Source: Lacrimispora xylanisolvens
GTDB lineage: Bacteria; Bacillota; Clostridia; Lachnospirales; Lachnospiraceae
Assembly: GCA_017084465.1 (NCBI GenBank)
Contig: CP070896.1
Coordinates: 2,035,001 to 2,099,000 of the forward strand
Direction of reading: 5' to 3'
Length of the DNA: 64,000 bases
Both the position numbers and the translations under genes were made by a program. Shown in pieces: positions 51,362-64,000 of the stretch (its first letter is position 1; each line of letters begins with the position of its first letter). The notes beneath the pieces were generated by a model. It had not been told where the DNA came from. It saw only the letters and a list, made by a program, of their open reading frames with translations, and did no database searches.

Positions 51362-52654
51362 TTAGATCAGCTTAAACTGTTCCATAATATTTTCCTGATA
51401 CCCGGGGTGTCTGTGTTCTTTTATAAGTGAGCCAAGTGCCACCAGCCTCTTGTCAGTAAGACGGTTAAGCTTCTTAAGCCTTGATTCGCTGACTATTTCA
51501 GCAGAAATGGAACTTTGATATAATTCTGGCTCATAACGCCACAGCTTAAGCTGATCCCCATAGCGGGTAATCAGTTTTTGGGCAATATCAAGCCCTTCCG
51601 GATCAAAATCACCGGAATAATAAATCTCTGCACCACCCTTGACCAGTAAATCAAGGATAACAAGCACGGAAAGGCGAAGCTGACCGCCGGAACAGATGCA
51701 GGAAACAGTTTGATTTTGTTCTGTAAGCATTGAGAAAATTGAAGGATTTTCTACAACATAAACCCTTGGTCCTACTGGCTGTGCAGATCTTAAAAGACTC
51801 AAATTCTGCAGAGTTAATATCTGAGGCTCTCTTCTTTCCACATATGCTTCCATTCCCTTGTGGGATCTTCCACCTAAGATATATCCCTTGATTCCATAAC
51901 AAAGAACCCAGTTATATAAATCATCTTTTATAATACCTGCCCTGTAAAAAAGTTCTGTTCTTTCTTCCAGAGCAGTCTGGAAAAGATTGCATTCACCGCC
52001 TAAAAGAGTACGAATCCCCTGCAAAAGATACGTTAAGCTTCTTTTTCCTTCATCAAAATAATGGGGATTGCCGGTGATAGAAGCAGCAAATACCGGCAGC
52101 CTTAAATAATTATCTGAAAAAACTGGAAGGCTGTTTAAACCATGCGATATGACCGGAAGCTGTTCTTTAAACCAATCGGGACTGGAATTATAATCCCTTA
52201 TCATTAAGGTGTTTAAAGCACTCCCTTTTATCAGACCACTCTCTAACCATATCCCAGCCGGAGTTCCATGAAAGGAACGGACATACTCCATGAAATATTT
52301 TTCACGCGTTTTCTCCTCCATGGCCTTTCTTTCCTTATTGGAAACCAGCGCATCCTCAAGAACCATGGTAACCAATGCCTCTAAGCAGCATCCGGCAAAA
52401 CGAGTCCGTTCTATCGCCTTATTAATCTGTCTGACAGAGACGCAGAGTGTCTGCCCCTGATTTATCTCCACCTGTAAAAAACCCTCCAAAGACTCTGCCT
52501 CTTCCTCTGTCAGTTCAGATATAATAATCTTACCACCCAGCCGGGAGAGGGATTGATATTTTTCCCGAAGCCCTTCTAACAAACGCCGAAACCCCATGCT
52601 GCTAAAATACCGGACCGCTTCCTCCAGAAGCTCATCGCCGCTCCATTTCTCCAT
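51362..52654 (-). CDS. jetD: Wadjet JetD, DUF2399/TOPRIM nuclease subunit
   Basis: About 430 residues (the reading frame is open from 52804; ATGs at 52681 and 52654 are the likely starts, overlapping jetC). The N-terminal DUF2399-type part has RYFSSMGFRRLLEGLREKY and SLSRLGGKIIIS. The C-terminal TOPRIM domain has VYVVENPSIFSML, ICSGGQLRLSVLVIL and the acidic YYSGDFDPEGLDIAQKL. In Wadjet, JetD cuts plasmid DNA bent by the JetABC condensin. Last gene of jetA-jetB-jetC-jetD. Confidence 0.9.
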   Translation of the reverse strand: MEKWSGDELLEEAVRYFSSMGFRRLLEGLREKYQSLSRLGGKIIISELTEEEAESLEGFLQVEINQGQTLCVSVRQINKAIERTRFAGCCLEALVTMVLEDALVSNKERKAMEEKTREKYFMEYVRSFHGTPAGIWLESGLIKGSALNTLMIRDYNSSPDWFKEQLPVISHGLNSLPVFSDNYLRLPVFAASITGNPHYFDEGKRSLTYLLQGIRTLLGGECNLFQTALEERTELFYRAGIIKDDLYNWVLCYGIKGYILGGRSHKGMEAYVERREPQILTLQNLSLLRSAQPVGPRVYVVENPSIFSMLTEQNQTVSCICSGGQLRLSVLVILDLLVKGGAEIYYSGDFDPEGLDIAQKLITRYGDQLKLWRYEPELYQSSISAEIVSESRLKKLNRLTDKRLVALGSLIKEHRHPGYQENIMEQFKLI

Positions 52655-55600
52655 CTTTTGCAGGCCTTCTAACCTTTCCATTCCAGATATAGGGAAGTAC
52701 TGTAACGAATTTTGCATTTTCTTTCCGTAAAAGCTGGTAAATAGCCAGTTCGGGAACGGTTTCGCAGTCTCCCCATAAAATCTGTGAATTAATAATAAAT
52801 TCAAAATCCATATCTACCATAAGCCGGAACATATCGCTGATGTTCTGTTCATCCACGCCGGCAAATGCCTCATCTAAGGACACCAGTCTTGGGGCATCGT
52901 CTCTGGCTCCGTCGTATTTAGCCACTACGGAAGAAAATAGCGGAACGTACATGGACATGGCCTTTTCTCCGCCGCTGAAGGTGAAAAACGCATTATTGGT
53001 CAGTTCTTTTCTATTTTCTCCTGTTTTCTGAAAGAACAGCTGAAACTCAAACCACTTTCTATAATCCAGAACTTCTTTCATGACAGCATGAAAGCTGCGG
53101 ATACTTCCGGTATCTTCCATAATTCTTCTTGCTTCCTGAACTTTTGTCTGAAAATGAAGAGACAGCTGTTCTAATTCCTCTTCGCGCATCAGCCCTGCGT
53201 CCTTTCAACAGTTCTACCAGCTCTCTGGTATCCAGCTGTCCTTCCTCTTCGGCTTTTTTCTTCTTCCAGACCAGACTTAGTTTTAATCCGCTGGAGGTAT
53301 TCATACTGCCCATTAGCCGGTTCATTTTTTCTACCCAGCTCTCACTTTTATAGATTTTATAACGGATTTTCTTGCTCACTGTATTGGCAAGCACGTCTTC
53401 AAATAAGGTTCTGTCGCTTTCTTTTACCAGACTCTTCTGAATCTCCACGTCCCCGGAAAGACCTGAAAGGAGAATGTCATAGGAAACCTCTCTTCCCTTA
53501 TACTTGGCAAGTATGACAAGACGCTTAAACTCAGGCTCTATGGTACCTCTGGGTAGATCCTCGTAGTCTTCTTTCCCAAAAAACCGGCTGAATAGTCAGG
53601 TTGTAGTCCACCAGTTCACTTAAATTCTCGTAAAATCTCTGCTGGAGTAAGCTGCTTAATTCTCCGCTGTTTCTCAGCACCTCAGGCTTCAGCAGGCGGC
53701 AAACGCTGGCAGCTGCTTCGGGAATGATTTCCCACGACAATGTCTCAAGCAGGTTAACAAGGGATAAATTCTTTTCGTCAAAAAGACCTCTTTCCAGAAG
53801 TGCCAGATCCTGGCGCCTTTTTTCTTTCTGCTCCCTGAGTGCCAACAGCCTGTCTTCACCGAATTTATAATCCTTTTCATAACCGCTTTGCTTTAAATAA
53901 CAGTCCTTTAACTCTTCCGGAATAGCAGCGAGGCGTTTTATACAATGCTCCAGCTGCTCTCTCACAGACTCATAATCTTTTGCCTTTAACTGCTCATCAC
54001 AAGCGGATATGGTGCTGTTAAAGCCGGATACTTCCCGATGCTTTTTTCCAATATCGTATCGGATCTCATCAAGAAGGAGCAAAATCTCTTCCATACGATC
54101 CTGCAGAACACGGACATTTTCAAGAGAATGCAGATATGACTGATGCAGCAGCTCCAGTGATCCGATGGAATCGTAATAGGCTGAGGCTTCCTCTTTCGCT
54201 TCTCTGTATATGGATAGTTCACCTTTTAAATAGAGCTTTTTACTGTTTTCAGCCACGGCAAGTCCTGCTTCTGTCAGCTCTTTTTGGAGCAGAGCCACGT
54301 TTATCTCTTTTTCCGCCAGTTCTTCTTCCAGCTTATTTAAACGCTCCAACGTCTCATAAAGGTCCTTTATGGACTCTCTTACATCAAACTCCGATGGATA
54401 TTTGCCATACTCAGTCTCAAGCCTGGCTATCTGGTTTTTATTGTTTAAGAGCTGCTGTTGTGTCTCCTCAAATTTTTCAGCGCACAGAGAAAGTTCTTCT
54501 TCCAGATCCTGTATCTTTGCCAGACGGTACTGCTCTCTGGCTCTGACACCAATAAATTTTGCTTCATAGGAATGGGTGATGGTTCCTTTTAATAAGCCCA
54601 AACCAAATCTGCCCTCCTCATCAATCCAGGTCTGCCCTCCCGGTGCTGTAGCGACTGCTCCTAAAACAGCAGAAAGCTCCTGATAAAACAAAATATTGTC
54701 AACTTCAGAGGATATCTCCAGAAGTCTTGCTATATTTTCCTTTACTTTACTAATATCTCCGAAAATATAGGTATCTCTCATTCCCTCTCTGAAAGCCAGT
54801 ACCTGTTCCTGATAGTTTGCGGGAACCACAACCGCATCCAGCATTCCCATATAGTAAAGCGCCTCCTCCAGACGGTTTCTTTTCTGTCCATCCAGAGCTT
54901 CTGCAAAATCCACCACCTTATAGAAGGGGTAATGTGGAATTTTATGCTGATGCAGCCACAAACGGTTGCAAGTACGGGCTCCTGTTTCTCCGGCTCAGGA
55001 TCCTTCTTATTCTTCCAGTTTTCAAGCTCCTGGCTTACTTTCCTCCAAGCATCTTCCTCCAGTTCTCTTCGATGCTCCAGTTCCACACCAGTCTTTTGAA
55101 GAACAGACAGAATTCTGTCCTTATGCTCCCGAAGCATTTCCCTTGCTTCAAGAGAATCTGTAAGTGCATCGTAGGAGCGGATTCTGCTGGTATAGTAACG
55201 TTCCTCTTCTTCGGAAAGTGTCAATATGGAATTGCTTCTGACCCACTGATAAAACTGCTCCTCCCACTCACTTTTTATTTCTCTGCATTGCTCTTCCTGG
55301 TCTTTTTTAAGAACCAGATAACGCTGCTTTTCCTGCCTGGTCTTCTCCAGTCTGACCAGCTCCTCCTCCTGCTTTTCAGCAATCCGCTGCTTTTTTTCCA
55401 AAAGCCCGATTCCAAGATCAATATCCCGCCGGATCCCCGCCATCTGCTCTCTTAATGTGTGAAATGGATATGGGTTGGAAATATCTTTTTTTAGATCACC
55501 GGCCATAAACATATGTTCATCAAAGTTCAATACATCAAGACCTGCTTCCATCTCATCAAGAGCTTCTTCTATCTCTTTTTCCTGCTGCTCCAGCTTGTCA

Positions 55601-56731
55601 GTCTGTTCTCTTTCAGCATAAGAAAGCTCGGTTTCCTTTCTGGTTCTCTCTTCCAGACTTTTTTCCTTTTCTGCCAGCTCCTTCTCAGCCTGATGAAGCT
55701 TTTGCTCTGCCTCCAGTTTATGCTCCATCAGCTTTGAGAAATCACTGCTGTCCAAACGCTCCTTCTTCTCCTGAAGAGCCGTTTTTTCAATATTCAAGGC
55801 ATCTTCTCTTTGAATCTCCTTCTGACGGTTCTGGCTGCATTCTTCTATTTTTTTTCTGTATCCCTGCATATTCCTTTTCAAATTCCCGATATTCCTGATC
55901 TGCTTTCAGATACCGATCTGCTTTTTCGTACAAAACAGCCCGGTTGTACTGCTGATAGACTTCATTGATTCTGTCTGCTGCCTTCTTTCCAGTTTCCAGT
56001 TCCATCAGCCTTGTCTTTAAATTGTCCATATTCTCAATTGCCTCTGACATGGGGCGAAGATCCTCATCGGAAAGAGGTGACAGTGAGCTGCTTAATATCT
56101 CATTTAATACGGTTGGTTTAAAATCTTTGGAAAGTTTGGGTGTACGAAGCTGTATGAGTAAATCCACCAGTTCTTTGTACTCTTCTACATTTTCATAGCC
56201 AAAAAGAGTTTCATTTACCAGCTTCATATAATCATTTTGGCCATCAATTACCTGACCGCCATCACCCAGGCGGTTGGCAAGCTCTATCCGGCTTAAAGTA
56301 ATCTTATTTTTCAGTTCCTTATACAGAAAGAAATCTCTTCCTATGCGGCGTCCGTCCCGTATTATGAAATGCCAGGAGTCCAGTTTTTTATTCTTCTTTG
56401 CACAAAGACCGATGCCGATGGTGATATAGGAATCACTGTCCTTACGCTTGAATTCCATATATAAATAACCGGTCCGCTCTTCTCTGCCGTCATTCTCCTC
56501 AAGAAGGTAGTTCTCAAGCTTTCTTGCTCTGGTTCCAAAGGGATCCAGACGCTCTGCTGCCTTATTGCCATCTAAAAGAAGGGGGATAAAGCTTTGCATG
56601 GTAACAGATTTTCCTGATCCGTTTGATCCGCGCAGCAACAGCCGGCCATCCCTGAAATGAAATTCTTCCTCATCATAATACCAGAAATCAATCAGTCCAA
56701 TCCGGTTAATTACCCATTTACTGGTTTTCAT
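52632..56731 (-). CDS. jetC: Wadjet JetC, SMC-like ATPase (four frame breaks)
   Basis: About 1366 residues, normal for TIGR02680-type proteins. The N-terminal head has FHFRDGRLLLRGSNGSGKSV (Walker A). Two very long coiled-coil arms follow (Glu/Lys/Gln-rich, about residues 270-620 and 680-1000). The C-terminal head has FFTFSGGEKAMSMYVPLFSS (ABC signature) and RLVSLDEAFAGVD (Walker B with catalytic Glu). Frame breaks near 55850, 54970, 53575 and 53200. It is the motor that extrudes and senses small circular DNA. The start overlaps jetB by 14 bases. Confidence 0.92.
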
Positions 56732-57877
56732 TTAACGTTTCCTCCCCGCTTTTCTGTTCCAGATAACGCTCCGGATATCTTCCTGTCAGTTTTCCTGCTA
56801 CCGGCATAATCTCAGCCTCCTCTGTTACCTGATCAATTCTTAAAAAATCCAGACCTTCCATTTCTTCTACAATTGTCTGGATAAACTCCGGATCAGGCAT
56901 CTCACGGAAAGCCTTTGAAAATCCGCTGCCGTATTTTGTCCTGGTTGTCCGTATAATTTCTTCAAGCTTTATGAGTGGAAGATTGATTCTTTCATTCACT
57001 TCAACTTTTAATCCTCCTGATTCTACACGTTCCCTGATCTCTCCATGAAGGAGTAAAATGGCGTCAGATAAGCTGTTTCTGGCAGGGAATATCTTCCCAA
57101 GATCTCCTGTTTCTCCAAGAATTAAATAAGCACTTGATTTATAAACCTGAAGAGTCGCATCAACTAACTGTTCCAAATCATTTTCTATAACGCTCCGGTA
57201 ATTCTTCACGTAGTTAAAATCCTCATCCTGTCCATTCTCCCGATACAGTCCAAGGGAGAGCAGCAGCTTCCGGTATACCCTCTGCCGCCTGATCACCCCT
57301 CTGTCCTCATTCATGTCAAGCCACTCACTCTGAAATCTGCTACGGACTTATTGGCACTGATATCCCGGGTAAATGTTCTGGCAAAATATCTGGAAAGACC
57401 TGTATTCTCATATAAGGCTTCTGTTTCCAGGTCCGTGACAAACTGGTCCCCATTTCCGTCATCCATAACAAAGAGATCGTTCTTCATACAGAATTTCATT
57501 ACCCGAATCAGTCTCTGACGGTTGGCATACACGGTCCAGGACATCTGTCCTTCCGGATAGTTGCCGGTAATATATTCCGTCAGCTGGGATAGCACAAACT
57601 GCTCCTCTGCATCCTTATCTTCCAAAAACATTAGAATTACACAAAATAAAGCGTAGTCGGATGTGTCTTTGAATTCTCGAATCCCCATCCAGGGAAGGGC
57701 TTCTCCCGGCAGCTTTTCAAGCTTTATCAGACTGCTGTTGCTGATAATCCGGTACCCAAGCTTTTCTACAAGGAAGGGGCGAACCTCACTGATCTCGTCC
57801 TTAATCTGGTAATATTTATCTCTGTCCCTGTATTTTGATATCCACCGCTCATTCATCAGTTCTTCCAGTATATTCAC
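56718..57877 (-). CDS. jetB: Wadjet JetB, DUF2398 (kite-like) subunit (frame broken near 57320)
   Basis: About 386 residues, the usual TIGR02678 length. The first half has KDEISEVRPFLVEKLGYRII, DYALFCVILMFLEDKDAEEQ and RQRLIRVMKFCMKNDLF. After VADFRVS the frame changes; joined, EWLDMNEDRGVIRRQRVYRK is a conserved DUF2398 block. The second half ends PVAGKLTGRYPERYLEQ. An ATGA overlap at the break could suggest two genes, but the conserved block spans it. The GTG at 57877 follows GAGG and overlaps jetA. Confidence 0.85.
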
Positions 57878-59362
57878 AGATTTTTTCCTCCTCAAAGCAA
57901 AGCACAAATGCCGGCATTTCAAAGCTGCCATCCTGGCAATTTACGATACAACGTTCTTTTGTTCCTGGATTTTCCACATAGTAAACCCGTCCGTCTCCAG
58001 TTTTACCCATCCCATCGCCTTCTAACGCTCTGGCAAGCCAGCGAAGCAGAATATTCCGGGCGCTTTTTTCTAGAACAGGAAGCTTATTAAAATGAATCTC
58101 CCCATTTTTTAAGAAGCTGTCCATCATAAGCTGCTCCTTCTCCTGCTTTTCCATCTCCTCTTTTTTTGCCTGTTCTTTCTCTTCGGTATAATCCCTGATA
58201 AAGCTGCGTTCTGCTTTTTCTCTGTATTCCCGTATTCTGGGAGCGAGCTCCAGAGCGCAGGGAGGTTCTTCATAAATTCCGGCATTAATGCTGTCGGTGG
58301 TCTTTTGGAAATCTCCCTTCAAATGCATGGGCTTCTCCACTCCAAATACAACTGCTGATAAGCAGTGCGCTTCCTTCAAATTACTGCAAGACAAAAATGT
58401 CTCACACAGCTTTCTGTATTCTTCCTTACGATTCGCACCACTTGTGAACTGCTCACTGATCTGGGTGGCATATCTTGTAATTCTTCGAATGCTTTCATTT
58501 GTCATGTCAAAAAAGTCTTGATGCCTCACTTTGCACGCCACCAACCTCCATAAACCACTCCTGCATACTGGCAAAGCGACCTCTGGTCCGTTCATACAGT
58601 TCCTCTCTGTCCGGTTCCATATCCAGTCTGGGGATCGATAACTCATATTCTACAGTTTTCTGATATATCTGTTCCAGAGTCGCGGGCATGATGCGCCGCA
58701 TAATCTCTTCAATTACGCCTACATTTAACTGAAGTCCCTTCACAAAGGAACGGAGATATTCTATCAGCTTGTCCTTATACATCAGAAACTGAGCGGTTTT
58801 CATTAATTCTTCCGCTCTTGCACTATTTAGGTCTCTCATGTAATCCTGATAGTTTTGGTTTAAGCGGATAAAATCATTGTTTAGGCTATTCCACCAGCCA
58901 TATACATCTAAGGGGGATTTTTCTGAAATTTCAAAGATTCTTGACAATTCAATTCTTATTTTTTCAAGGAGTGTGGGTTCTAAGGAGGCCCCTTCCACGA
59001 AGAGTTTTTCCAACCGTATGGTCATTCGCTCAATTTCTACGGAATATTCCGCAAGCTGGTAGCGGTACTGCCTGTTTTTAAATGCTTCGATTGAAGTTAC
59101 CCGCTTGGTATCCTGCATGGTCAGAAGATTCCCCCCAGTTAACCAGGGCATCGAGATCCTGACGGCACTGATCAATGGTATAGTCGGAAAATTCCGGGTG
59201 GGAGGAAAGCTCCCGGTGGATTTCTTCCTGCTCCAGCCAGTACTTGATCTTCTCGTATTGCATATAGAAATAGCGAAGAATGACACGATAACGTCTGGCA
59301 TTCTCCGCCGTTAAATAGGCTGTTTCACGGATTGGTTTTAATAGCTTTTCGGTTAATTCCAT
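57849..59362 (-). CDS. jetA: Wadjet JetA, DUF2397 (kleisin-like) subunit (two frame breaks)
   Basis: About 504 residues, matching TIGR02677. The N-terminus MELTEKLLKPIRETAYLTAE and FYMQYEKIKYWLEQEEI is followed by QDLDALVNWGNLLTMQDT (joined over a G run at 59128-59133), the hallmark block of DUF2397. The second break near 58510 (six Ts for five) joins EASRLF to DMTNESIRRI. The C-terminal winged-helix end reads ENPGTKERCIVNCQDGSFEM. It is the first gene of the Wadjet operon, with its own promoter. Confidence 0.88.
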
Positions 59363-59425: not shown

Positions 59426-59455
59426 TGGTTTTGTAGAAATAATGCGGTGGAGTTA

Positions 59456-59476
59456 AGGATAATATACTATTATCCT
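59456..59476. promoter_or_regulatory. Left copy of the 21-bp palindrome, candidate operator or module border
   Basis: AGGATAATA-TAC-TATTATCCT: perfect 9-base arms. It lies between jetA (minus) and the glycosyltransferase (plus). Its exact reverse complement recurs at 63856-63876. Confidence 0.7.
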
Positions 59477-59595
59477 GTCATAATGTAGAGTCATTAATCT
59501 AAAAACTACTAAACGAAAATAACTATCGGAAGAGGGAAGTCACATAATGCTTCTAAAAAATAATTAAATCAGTTAGTAAAACTAAGGAGAATGCC

Positions 59596-60663
59596 ATGAA
59601 GAAAGCAAGTATAATTATTTCTATAGACAATACGTTCGCAATTGTTAGTAATTTTTTTGAAATGCTTTTTTTACATATTTCCAAAGATTTATTTGAAATT
59701 ATAGTTATCGATGATTTTTGCTCTGATATTCAAGCCATGGCATACATAAACAAGTTGGCACAAAATGGACTAATTGATATACTGATTCCTTTAAAAAGCA
59801 AAAACGGATTCGGTAAAGCAAATAACATTGGTGCACGAAATAGTACCACAAATTGCTTGACTTTTATGAATTCTGATATAATAATAAACAATGATATTTT
59901 AGATCATTTAGTTGAAATATATTACAAAAAAGAATTTGCAGCTTTTCAGCCACTTTTACTTTATCCACAAACACAGTATATTCAGAGCGCTGGTCACATT
60001 TTTGCAACCTATTTTAATAAACATTCGTTGGAAAATAATACGGTTGATATTTTAACTAAGAAAGAACCAATAACCCGTCAAGCTCTAACACTTGCTTTTT
60101 GTGTAATAGACAAGGAATCCTTTTATGAAGCTGATGGTTTCGACGAATTCTATTATAATGGTTATGAGGGAATTGAACTTATTTTAAAGATCAGCCAAAA
60201 ACATAAATGTGCCATAATTCCATATTTACATGCGTATCATGTCAGAAGCGTAGCAGTCAATAATACAGTATTTGATGAAGAGCAGAAGATTCCATACTTT
60301 TGGTGTAGATGTTCAAATATAATTAAAAATGATTATGTAGAATTTATACAACAATACATACCACAGGATTTATACAATATTTATTATATAGGAATTCAAT
60401 TAACTTCCTTAGACTTGCTCACAGAAGTTAAAAACGCAGGAATTAAAATAACCGAAAGTTTACTCTTTATTAACAAAGGTCAGGTCGAACTTTTTTCGAC
60501 TCTTCCCCATGCTTTTATAAATTCACTCAGTCCATTATTATTTTTATGTGACAATTATACTCAATTAATAAAAAATAAGCTGTGGATACATATGAGAAAC
60601 AATAAAAAAGATTTGGTTATAGATTCCAATGGAAATGTCAAACGCATTATAGATTTAATATAA
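59596..60663 (+). CDS. Family 2 glycosyltransferase-like protein, AT-rich, substituted active-site block
   Basis: 355 residues; start after AAGGAG. The GT-A fold begins ASIIISIDNTFAIVSNFFEM with IIVIDDFCSD, NGFGKANNIGARNS and the DXD-like TFMNSDIIINNDI. The usual catalytic-base block (FxxxYEDxDL) reads FYYNGYEGIELILK, so the Asp is replaced by Gly. The C-terminal ~140 residues are unfamiliar. The codons are clearly AT-rich compared with genes before 59.4 kb, suggesting transfer. It is convergent with the STAND gene and bounded by the shared palindrome. Confidence 0.75.
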   Translation: MKKASIIISIDNTFAIVSNFFEMLFLHISKDLFEIIVIDDFCSDIQAMAYINKLAQNGLIDILIPLKSKNGFGKANNIGARNSTTNCLTFMNSDIIINNDILDHLVEIYYKKEFAAFQPLLLYPQTQYIQSAGHIFATYFNKHSLENNTVDILTKKEPITRQALTLAFCVIDKESFYEADGFDEFYYNGYEGIELILKISQKHKCAIIPYLHAYHVRSVAVNNTVFDEEQKIPYFWCRCSNIIKNDYVEFIQQYIPQDLYNIYYIGIQLTSLDLLTEVKNAGIKITESLLFINKGQVELFSTLPHAFINSLSPLLFLCDNYTQLIKNKLWIHMRNNKKDLVIDSNGNVKRIIDLI

Positions 60664-60670
60664 TAAAACT

Positions 60671-60698
60671 CCAGAATAGCCTAGTGGGGCTATTCTGG
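60671..60698. terminator. Hairpin between the glycosyltransferase and STAND genes
   Basis: CCAGAATAGCC pairs perfectly with GGCTATTCTGG around TAGTGG; it can act on both convergent genes, though T runs are weak. Confidence 0.75.
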
Positions 60699-60703
60699 AA
60701 GCA

Positions 60704-63700
60704 CTACCAAATGCGTGTGTCTAAAATATAGACATTGGACATAGCGTGATCATTAAAAAATGTAATATTATTTTTCAAACCTTTTGTATTATGAGTCCAT
60801 ACGCTTTGATAGTCATTACCCATCTGATTTAATTTCTTCTTTTCTTCGGTCGTTAATTCTTCTATCTGATTTGCTTTATTGGAATATATTAAATAAGCAT
60901 TTTTTATCATTTTATATAGCAATGCCAAACGTCCAGTAAAGGAAAAGCTTAATACATATTTTGATATATAGATATCATGTCTTATTTCTTCCTTAGAATA
61001 TCCCCCTCTAACCATCTTTAAAGCAGCTAACTTTAGTTTTGCTTTAGAATATAGTTCAATAAATTGTGAATGATAGAGTAAGTTTGAAGCTAACTCTAGT
61101 TCTTCTAAATTCTGCGTATGATCTTTGAGACATTTTAAATATGCCAATTCGCAGTTACAATCTAAAAGACGCCTATGCTCTGTACCTAGCGTTTCAAATA
61201 TTTCCTGCGCTTTTTGCATATACTCTAATGCTTTAATTAAATCACAATGATAGAACCCCTTTGAATAATCCATATACAAATGTCCAATATAATCCAGGCG
61301 ACTTAACTGTTCATTTATTAGATAATTATTTTTAAAGGTTTCTTCTGCCAGCTCATAATTTCCTAGAATTAGTTGAAGGACCATTTTTCGATTAATCAAA
61401 TTCAAATAAGCACAAATTAGATCCTCAGGTGAATTATTTGAGATAGTAGGTATCTGAATAATAGTCTCTTCTATAGTGTTCGATAAGCCAATTAAATTTA
61501 ATTCCCAATAATCAATGTTAATTATCTCTGATTGGGCACGGAATATGGTTCCCTGAACAGAACTATCGGCAATCAAAGAGCGACCGAATCTAATAACGTC
61601 ATTATAAAGCTTCTTCACTTTAGAAACTTCCTTAAAATATCCTGAAGAAACAGCTAATATAAACATGTCATATAATTCCTGACGGGATAGCTGTTCATCA
61701 AAGTTTATATATTTTTTAAAAGCTTTTGCTAATATATATGCTTTGTAATAATCTGTTATATTAAAGTAGTAGTATTCCAACTCGTGTGCTTCTGCTTCAA
61801 TCTGACAGTACACATGATATCCGCTTTTAATTAATAGTGAAAGAAATAAATATTTTTGATCATCTGAATCAGATTTACCACACATTTTTTTATGATATTA
61901 ATGGTATTATCCGACAATTTATTATCTTCAAAATATGCCTTTACATAAAAATCATGAAATGGAGCTATCTTCTTACCGACCCGTTTAAATACTTTTCGTT
62001 CAAGTAATAAATCCACTTTTTTATAATTAAAATATTGTGTTAGTTCTTTATAGTCAATGCCAAAGTTTACATAATATACGCACTCAATAATCTCGTAATA
62101 TTCTGTAAATTGTTGTAACTGTTCTTTATAAATAAAACTGTTTACAATTTGGGGCACTTCAAAAGAATGTACTATATTTGTTTCTTTGGTAATAGGGTCT
62201 ATCATATTATTTTCATTCTGATCTAAACTTTTCTTTAAAATATTGCCGAAAACGATTAGATCATCTGTCGCTCTGTTAAAGTCTATATCTCCATCAAAAT
62301 CAAAATAGTAATTTAGTGTGTTTAACTTATCTTCTTTCGTAAGCCCTTCCAGCAAATACGGCTTGATCCATTCTTTTCTGAGATCATCAATATTTACAGA
62401 AAACTCTTTATAGTTTTCTCGGCAAGCAATAATTAAGGCTTGATTGTTGGAAATATTCAAAAACTGAGTAACAAAACTTTTAAATACATTCAATATCACA
62501 TTACTAATCTTATGAATATCATCCAGTATTACTATTTGCCGAATTTGCGTACATACAGGGTAAATTAACGGAAAATTATGTAATTTTATTTTATGCATTA
62601 AATAATTAATGCATATGCCCGGAGAATTAAAATGGCCATTTATTAACTGTGTATAATAAATCCTTTGCTCTTCATTTGAAAGACTATCCAACTGTAGAAG
62701 AAGTGCCTCTTTATCGTATTCAAATATATTTCCAATATTAAGAAATAATAATATTTGTATCAATACCTTTATATCCAAATATTCATTTCCACTAAAAGAA
62801 AACATTAATACGTTATTGTTAATATTTAACTCTGTATATAAATACTGCATTAATCTTGTTTTTCCGGTAGATCCAGCCCCTAGAACAGGGATTAGAAAAT
62901 TATGTTCATTTGATTCAATTACCCATTGTGAAATTTCAGCTAAATATTTTTCTTGTTTCATATATGACAAAGATACATCCTTATTTGATATGATTGTTAA
63001 TCCGGATATTATATATGAAGCTAATACTTCATCATTTTTGACCAGCCAAAATTTTACATCTAATTTTGCTGGTTCTTGAGGAATTATCTCAAATTTATAT
63101 ATATTTTTCCCTCTATTAATAATAAAATCATCTGGATTATCAAATAATTTAGATCGATTTTGGGAAATAAACCCATTGATCTTTAACTGTACGTTTGATA
63201 CATCAATAGCGCTTACTAAAATAATATATAAGTAATAAACACTTTTTTCTACCAGATGGGTTTCTATTTTGTATTGGTTGATATTAAAAATATCCGTAAT
63301 TGTCGCTGCTAAAACTCGACAATCACTTATATCTTCTTGTTTTTCAATAGTCACTGCTTTAATGCCGTATTCATCCAATATTTCCGAATTATTTAGTAAC
63401 CAGCATTCAAATTCTTCTTTTAATATCAATTCAATCCCAATATTGGTTTTAATCTTAAAATCTCTTAAACGGTATTGATAAGTCTCTGTCATATGACTAT
63501 TGCTAATAAAACATATGGAAACATGTTTAGGATATAAAAGCGCAGAGATTAGTGTAGGATCCAGCTGCCCTTTCAGAAGTGTATGGGTATTCATACTCTT
63601 AGTAAATTTAGCTTCTGCCCAGTATTCAAAATCCTGATTTAGAACCTTATACTTACAATAAATATCTTTATTTCCGTCATTTCCAGGCGGAGTGAGTACC

Positions 63701-63786
63701 CATTCATAATCAGGATATTTACTTTTTAAATAACATAGAGCAAGCACTTCAAATGTTCTCGGATCAATTTGTGAATAATCAAACAT
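60704..63786 (-). CDS. PD-(D/E)xK nuclease-STAND ATPase with helical repeats, putative defence protein (frame broken near 61890)
   Basis: About 1027 residues when joined across a 7-A run (restored IIKKMCGKSDSDDQKYLFLS). The N-terminal Mrr-like nuclease fold (residues 1-130) has FEVLALCYLKSKYP and PPGNDGNKDIYCKYKVLNQD, with Glu-Ala-Lys in EYWAEAKF, the D...ExK site. The NTPase has Walker A VLGAGSTGKTRLMQYL and Walker B IVILDDIHKI, then ALIIACREN and LLEGLTKEDKLNTL, as in STAND ATPases. The last ~390 residues are helical, TPR-like repeats (ADSSVQGTIFRAQSE; ALEYMQKAQEIFETLG). This layout resembles Avs-type phage sensors. AT-rich; follows GAGGTG. Confidence 0.8.
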
Positions 63787-63850
63787 TTTTCACCTCTTAA
63801 TTTTATTTTCACCGTAATAACTCTGACTATCCAGTTTAATATTTTGGAGA

Positions 63851-63881
63851 AGTAAAGGATAATAGTATATTATCCTTTACT
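63851..63881. promoter_or_regulatory. Right copy of the palindrome, upstream of the STAND gene
   Basis: Perfect 14-base arms (AGTAAAGGATAATA and TATTATCCTTTACT) around GTA. The central 21 bases (63856-63876) are the exact reverse complement of the left copy at 59456-59476. It lies 65 bases before the STAND start. TATACT inside it could serve as a -10 box. Confidence 0.75.
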
Positions 63882-63936
63882 CATATTTCCATAATAGCAT
63901 GTTTCTCAACAAATTCCAACTATTAACAGCCAAACT

Positions 63937-64000
63937 TTAATCCCCTTCCATTACCTTCATACTATTCCTGGGCAGCTTATTATTTAATATTTCCTTCTGC
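63937..64000 (-). CDS. C-terminal end of an unidentified gene (runs off the window)
   Basis: The minus strand is open from the window edge to a TAA at 63937, reading QKEILNNKLPRNSMKVMEGD. Too short to identify; it could be chance. Confidence 0.3.
   Translation of the reverse strand, partial: QKEILNNKLPRNSMKVMEGD

Follow-up and report, generated by a model that had tools for sequence, protein, structure and literature searches.

Inverted palindromes beside a tyrosine recombinase gene as the likely sites of an invertible, exchangeable two-gene cassette

The locus considered here raises a simple question: why does the same palindrome stand on both sides of two convergent genes, next to a Wadjet operon? 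It lies in a stretch of 64,000 nucleotides from Lacrimispora xylanisolvens (contig CP070896.1 of assembly GCA_017084465.1, positions 2,035,001 to 2,099,000; hereafter the window) and comprises a glycosyltransferase gene and a nuclease/STAND-like gene. An earlier note, made from the sequence alone, left a choice between a common operator of one regulator and the borders of an AT-rich cassette beside Wadjet; the second idea stands as far as it goes, and the first is unsupported. The palindromes are quite likely to be the inverted recombination sites of a phase-variable, exchangeable cassette, in which a flank promoter would drive the gene that faces it.

The proposed mechanism is as follows. The two palindromes would be the sites of a tyrosine recombinase encoded just beyond the second of them, and this enzyme would flip the 4.4-kilobase (kb) segment in between, an event for which relatives give strong indications. 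Two convergent genes occupy the segment, each with its start towards one of the sites. On the flank, outside the cassette, a promoter would drive the adjacent gene, and a flip would exchange expression of the nuclease-STAND gene for that of the glycosyltransferase. The present assembly has the promoter-like sequence facing the STAND gene.

The Palindrome Pair and Its Recombinase

The 21-base-pair (bp) copies occupy 59456-59476 (AGGATAATATACTATTATCCT) and 63856-63876 (AGGATAATAGTATATTATCCT) and are exact reverse complements of each other, as the earlier note had reported. The exact inverted repeat between them extends to 22 bp, and the site is a symmetric 7-5-7 arrangement. The distal site, palindrome 1 (59455..59476, no strand assigned), reads AAGGATAAT-ATACT-ATTATCCT; the proximal site, palindrome 2 (63856..63877, likewise unstranded), has the same centre in inverted order and lies inside a longer palindrome of 31 bp, whose own centre is 3 bp. 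A scan of the window allowing up to 3 mismatches returns only these two, and they are the sole exact copies in the 5.63-megabase genome, where 2 further places match at 2 mismatches. This agrees with the first reading, in which no further copy had been noticed, and the many unrelated genomic copies that would have marked a dispersed repeat were not found.

The gene order is also as first described: jetA on the minus strand, palindrome 1, the glycosyltransferase gene on the plus strand, the nuclease/STAND gene on the minus strand and palindrome 2. Then comes a minus-strand gene for a tyrosine recombinase of 309 residues, with 60 bp between its stop codon and palindrome 2. Only 124 bp of the window follow that palindrome, so that just the 3' end of the gene (63937..64000, the last 64 bp) falls within the window; the gene runs on to genome position 2099866. 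The protein matches Pfam Phage_integrase (E=3.7e-44) and is XerC/D-like, yet stays under the cut-offs for XerC and XerD proper. Residues R154, K178, H247, R250, H273 and Y282, which we take to be the catalytic residues of tyrosine recombinases, are invariant in 12 aligned recombinases, including those of Streptococcus and Aliarcobacter plasmids. The same genome holds 7 other recombinase matches, at 29-37% identity.

Related recombinases occur in 51 of 397 genomes of the family, the present one included. Within the genus, 3 of 24 other genomes encode one at 55-60% identity, each with a similar palindrome just beyond the stop codon, and relatives that share the layout sit on Streptococcus and Aliarcobacter plasmids. 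In 398 genomes drawn from across the phylum, the only match at E<=1e-75 was the genome's own, and a contig scan with the recombinase gave a single partial match of 32 residues. Phage records yielded 25 matches at E<=1e-30, with 3 at 51-55% identity among the ten matches listed; two of those three records were examined, and no 17-bp inverted pair was found at a motif site, except possibly in L179.

The Site in Relatives

The comparison rests on 59 recombinase loci, 56 from the family search and 3 from the genus (relatives are named by our own genome, contig and locus handles). Forty of these loci have the motif GATAAT-N5-(A/G)TTATC, with at most 1 mismatch, no more than 400 bp from the recombinase 3' end; the same motif is found at the 5' end in 7/59 and in control windows in 36/1683. 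The strict motif AAGGATAAT-N5-ATTATCC is present in 11 of the 397 family genomes, and this recombinase subfamily accompanies it in 7 of the 10 other than our own. The remaining three (G172, G402, G332) have the strict motif, yet no recombinase at E<=1e-40. The motif scan of viral contigs returned 34 stretches, possibly by chance. Two loci, L057 (G241 C122) and L117 (G059 C15), have the site 5' of the recombinase gene rather than 3'.

Pairing recurs as well. An exact inverted repeat of at least 17 bp to a place 1-8 kb away is found in 23 of the 41 loci with enough sequence, vs. 17 of 1124 control windows. Twenty-two of these are treated as paired elements: the 17-bp repeat of G070, which lies away from any motif site, was dropped as chance, and G408 C2, with its second repeat at a contig end, was kept. 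All 22 carry convergent genes of at least 100 residues, starting at both ends of the segment, and the order recombinase, site, cassette recurs across many genera and on plasmids. The inverted repeats of the elements reach up to 126 bp.

The 5-base centre of the site varies among elements but matches, in inverted order, within all seven pairs that were found with the centre left free (the present locus, G316, G302, G310, G255 C23, G013 and G136). A match within pairs combined with variation between elements is expected of crossover regions, not of operators. The centre also matches in 21 of the 22 elements found via exact repeats, a figure that is not counted because selection for exact repeats nearly forces the match.

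Two arrangements are more elaborate. Contig C130 of G255 (L119, 11591-16020) has two nested site pairs with different centres around one cassette, with a serine hydroxymethyltransferase (SHMT)-like gene just outside; these two pairs are not among the seven free-centre pairs. On the Streptococcus plasmids L176 and L183, the ATG of both cassette genes, together with a stretch resembling a ribosome-binding site, falls within a 39-bp inverted repeat, so that the two genes would share one translation start.

Inversion

Evidence for inversion comes from where assemblies break. Of the 59 loci, 15 have a contig end 210 bp or less from the 3' end of the recombinase gene and 1 has one at the 5' end, with 0.35 expected. 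The repeats should be too short to break assemblies by themselves; a mixture of orientations would do so. The contig ends imply that both orientations were present together in the cells sequenced for five relatives (G302, G310, G288, G376, G408). Two contigs of G288 open with an identical 127 bp, made up of a cassette end and the site, and then enter two different flanks. The recombinase-side contig of G302 shares 119 bp with one cassette end and, with the other, exactly the 24-bp repeat; that of G310 overlaps each cassette end by 18 bp. Both flank contigs of G376, and likewise of G408, end at the last base of a common 23 bp. Contig C23 of G255, which has an identical outer flank at both ends, was not counted, since either both orientations or a longer true repeat would fit. 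Inversion is well supported in relatives, and the segment in the window may invert in the same way.

Promoters and Orientation

Promoters were called as inward sigma-70-like sequences scoring in the top 5% of their own shuffles, across the 44 flanks of the 22 elements. Ten elements have such a predicted promoter on one flank and none on both; it stands on the recombinase side in 3, the present element included, and on the far side in 7. The promoter-like sequence of the window, TTGGAA-N17-TATTAT (63891..63919, minus strand), points into the cassette at the STAND gene and is the best score of its flank, a score that 0.015 and 0.01 of shuffles reach. The gene facing the predicted promoter is of the nucleoside triphosphatase (NTPase)/TIR type in 4 of the 10 (our own, G076, G364, G281) and an enzyme in 6. 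Of 44 predicted gene starts, 18 are no farther than 45 bp from the core site. These features are consistent with orientation deciding which cassette gene would be expressed.

Cassette Exchange

Over longer times the sites appear to serve a second process. Two Aliarcobacter plasmids agree at 97.8% identity across the recombinase gene and the near site, and at 90.7% starting from the far site; the cassettes that the sites enclose are unrelated. Two Streptococcus salivarius megaplasmids have likewise swapped cassettes (flanks 91.1% and 97.1%), and the cassette of an S. equinus plasmid is that of one of these megaplasmids (99.6%). This comparison of plasmids shows, at the level of sequence, that whole cassettes are replaced at the sites. 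Genome G312 of the same genus suggests the same: its sequence matches the present locus at 94.6% identity across jetA and palindrome 1, and the similarity breaks off at the palindrome's last base, beyond which come an SHMT-like gene and insertion-sequence genes. A search of G312 returned no recombinase at E<=1e-40.

Cargo

The glycosyltransferase (59596..60663, plus strand, 355 residues) belongs to family 2 and forms the enzyme arm of the cassette (Pfam Glyco_tranf_2_2, E=5.8e-12; Glycos_transf_2, E=1.9e-9). The opposite, immune-like arm is split into two overlapping frames on the minus strand: an N-terminal part of 651 residues (61831..63786) and, in another frame, a C-terminal part of 393 residues (60704..61885; TPR_12 at E=0.0025, below the cut-off). 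The first ~115 residues resemble the Mrr-type nuclease region of a G364 protein (pairwise comparison, E=3e-6), and P-loop matches of the N-terminal part are weak (Pfam E=0.0046; NCBIfam Hda 3.1e-5). The split, with an overlap at 61831-61885, falls at a run of seven A/T and may reflect sequencing error, decay or frameshifting, which would look alike here. A hairpin between the convergent genes (60670..60699, unstranded; L005:3670-3699) may be a shared terminator.

Thirty cassettes could be compared: the 22 paired ones, three on separate contigs (G302, G310, G255 C23) and five distinct plasmid cassettes. An enzyme arm is present in 28, by Pfam match, record annotation or homology, the exceptions being G149 and G331; the call was by homology alone in G136, G076, G273 and G181, and weakly so in G028. 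The enzymes include glycosyltransferases, D-Ala-D-Ala-ligase-like ATP-grasp and SHMT-like proteins, GHMP kinases, carbamoyltransferases, radical SAM proteins, methyltransferases and polyprenyl synthetases. A P-loop NTPase/STAND, TIR, SIR2 or Mrr-type domain is found on an arm in 16 of the 30 cassettes (in five of these, our own among them, only at Pfam E 0.002-0.005), and an enzyme together with an immune-type domain in 15/30.

PADLOC, run on 71 cassette proteins, gave matches in 22 families, the best to a ThsA-like protein at 1.1e-60. The cassette protein alignment holds 71 of 72 listed reading frames, a transposase-like frame of L147 being omitted. PADLOC gave no match for the cassette genes of the window (three of its cassette proteins scanned with an E limit of 0.05, and the STAND protein a second time). 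The cassette of G149 (L124) combines a SIR2-STALD ThsA-like protein with a TIR protein, convergent, which are parts of a Thoeris-like system. Known Thoeris systems require the ThsA-like and the TIR protein together. The cassette may serve in phage defence.

Weighing Inversion and Alternation

Several observations weigh against a simple switch. No site is found at up to 1 mismatch in 19 of the 59 recombinase loci. A search for partner contigs in 12 genomes recovered a second site with a matching centre in 5, cleanly in G288, G376 and G408 and less so in G367 and G122, and none in the other 7. The contig ends are indirect evidence on inversion, and they concern relatives rather than the window's own genome. 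Homologous cassettes are opposite relative to the recombinase in G136 vs. G028/G181; the promoter side changes too, which is why this case is not used as proof of a flip.

Expression is subject to similar qualifications. Twelve of the 22 elements have no clear flank promoter, and about 2 of 44 flanks are expected to have one by chance. The site overlaps the recombinase stop, or lies within 30 bp of it, in 7/22 elements, which may allow reading of the near gene whichever way the cassette lies; of the remaining 15 elements, only 3 have a hairpin resembling a terminator. The Thoeris-like pair in G149 speaks against strict alternation, and whether the two arms alternate strictly is uncertain.

Alternative Explanations

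The best-surviving alternative, rather unlikely in our view, is an exchangeable module without regulated flipping. The sites would swap cassettes between replicons in a pdif-like manner, inversion would be a by-product and both genes would be expressed from both flanks. Cassette replacement in plasmids and G312, the Thoeris-like pair within one cassette and the possible read-through from the recombinase gene in 7/22 elements would all fit. This explanation accounts less well for an inward promoter that stands on a single flank and never on both, for the contig ends that point to frequent inversion and for the proximity of so many gene starts to the core site, which leaves little room for promoters inside the cassette.

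Far less probable is a shared operator, with one DNA-binding regulator on both palindromes controlling the glycosyltransferase gene, the STAND gene and perhaps jetA. The palindromic form suits such a role, as does a location ahead of jetA and of each cassette gene. The centres, however, vary among elements and match within pairs, homology ends at the sites in relatives and plasmids alike, and the site accompanies the recombinase gene; no search aimed at a regulator gene was made. No better placed is the idea that the palindromes mark the termini of an ordinary transposon or of an integrative element, with a recombinase that only integrates. The segment is AT-rich and has inverted ends, and IS66-type genes lie farther downstream. 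In integrative elements the attachment sites are direct repeats around the integrase, whereas here the sites are inverted and the recombinase is outside them; the order of recombinase, site and cassette recurs across many genera and on plasmids, and no transposase was recognised between the palindromes within the window. Chance palindromes are rejected as hardly conceivable, given a mean of 0.05 matches in dinucleotide shuffles of the window, two matches in 0 of 100 shuffles, no other exact genomic copy and the recurrence of the pairing in relatives.

Relation to Known Systems

An invertible cassette as preferred here has parts of known kinds. The switches of C. difficile RecV, pneumococcal PsrA/hsdS and E. 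coli FimB/fimS likewise combine a tyrosine recombinase with short inverted repeats, and both orientations of such switches coexist in a population, according to PMC5903667. The flipped piece in those switches usually carries a promoter or recombines gene parts, whereas the present cassette has two whole, unrelated genes (convergent in all 22 pairs) and is exchangeable. The G segment of phage Mu, flipped by Gin, holds convergent alternative genes with the promoter outside, an arrangement like the one proposed here. Gin, however, belongs to the serine recombinases, and the Mu alternatives are variants of one set of tail-fibre genes, unlike the tyrosine recombinase and unrelated arms of this element. 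The pdif/dif modules of Acinetobacter plasmids are bounded by Xer-type sites in inversely oriented pairs and shuffled between replicons; the inverse site pair and module exchange are seen here too. Those modules depend on XerC/XerD with asymmetric dif-like sites, in contrast to the dedicated recombinase beside a symmetric 7-5-7 site and the two-arm cargo of the present element.

STAND, TIR and nuclease immune proteins and Thoeris are paralleled by the ThsA-like and TIR proteins of G149 and by the NTPase, TIR and Mrr-type domains of other cassettes; the window's own proteins differ from known anti-phage systems in lacking a PADLOC match, and defence activity here is putative. Recombinase-driven inversion can change phage sensitivity: inversion of a prophage segment by PinQ blocks phage T2, as PMC12529663 reports. 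PinQ, as described there, is a serine recombinase that forms chimeric tail-fibre genes and does not choose between an enzyme and an immune-type NTPase. Gene-altering inversions are also the subject of Milman et al. (2023), as cited in PMC11892184. Full-text searches confined to open PubMed Central papers listed no description of cassettes of the present kind, nor of the combination of dedicated recombinase, symmetric site, two-arm cassette (often enzyme/immune-type) and exchange between replicons.

Implications

The recombinase subfamily, the site and the two-arm cargo layout occur together. A wider generalisation is possible and is put forward tentatively: a widespread two-state modular system, in one family and on plasmids of other groups, in which a cell expresses either an immune-type NTPase/TIR/nuclease or a biosynthetic enzyme and cassettes are swapped. 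If so, populations would be a standing mix of defended and enzyme-expressing cells, with renewal of the defence. The enzymes may even make a protective small molecule, in which case a flip would choose between two kinds of immunity. Should expression depend on orientation, immune-type NTPases would undergo phase variation and modular exchange in a manner for which no description was found. Recombinases beside defence genes are often dismissed as prophage marks, according to PMC12529663. The layout offers a rule by which new immune-type genes, and the enzymes paired with them, could be sought, and each element predicts two countable junctions, which makes it directly testable.

The Wadjet Side and Other Flanks

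GC content is about 0.26-0.32 in the cassette segment vs. 0.42-0.47 in Wadjet. The link of the cassette to Wadjet looks incidental because other elements have other neighbours; jetA also adjoins the site in the same-genus genome G312. The genes jetA, jetB and jetC (52632-59362 of the window) are broken into several overlapping frames, which may reflect sequencing errors or decay (89.5% completeness, one contig), and in G312 they are intact (492, 387 and 1366 residues). Past the window, beyond the recombinase (L005 8082-11763), lie AAA_11/AAA_12 helicase-like gene fragments with weak matches to anti-phage helicase proteins.

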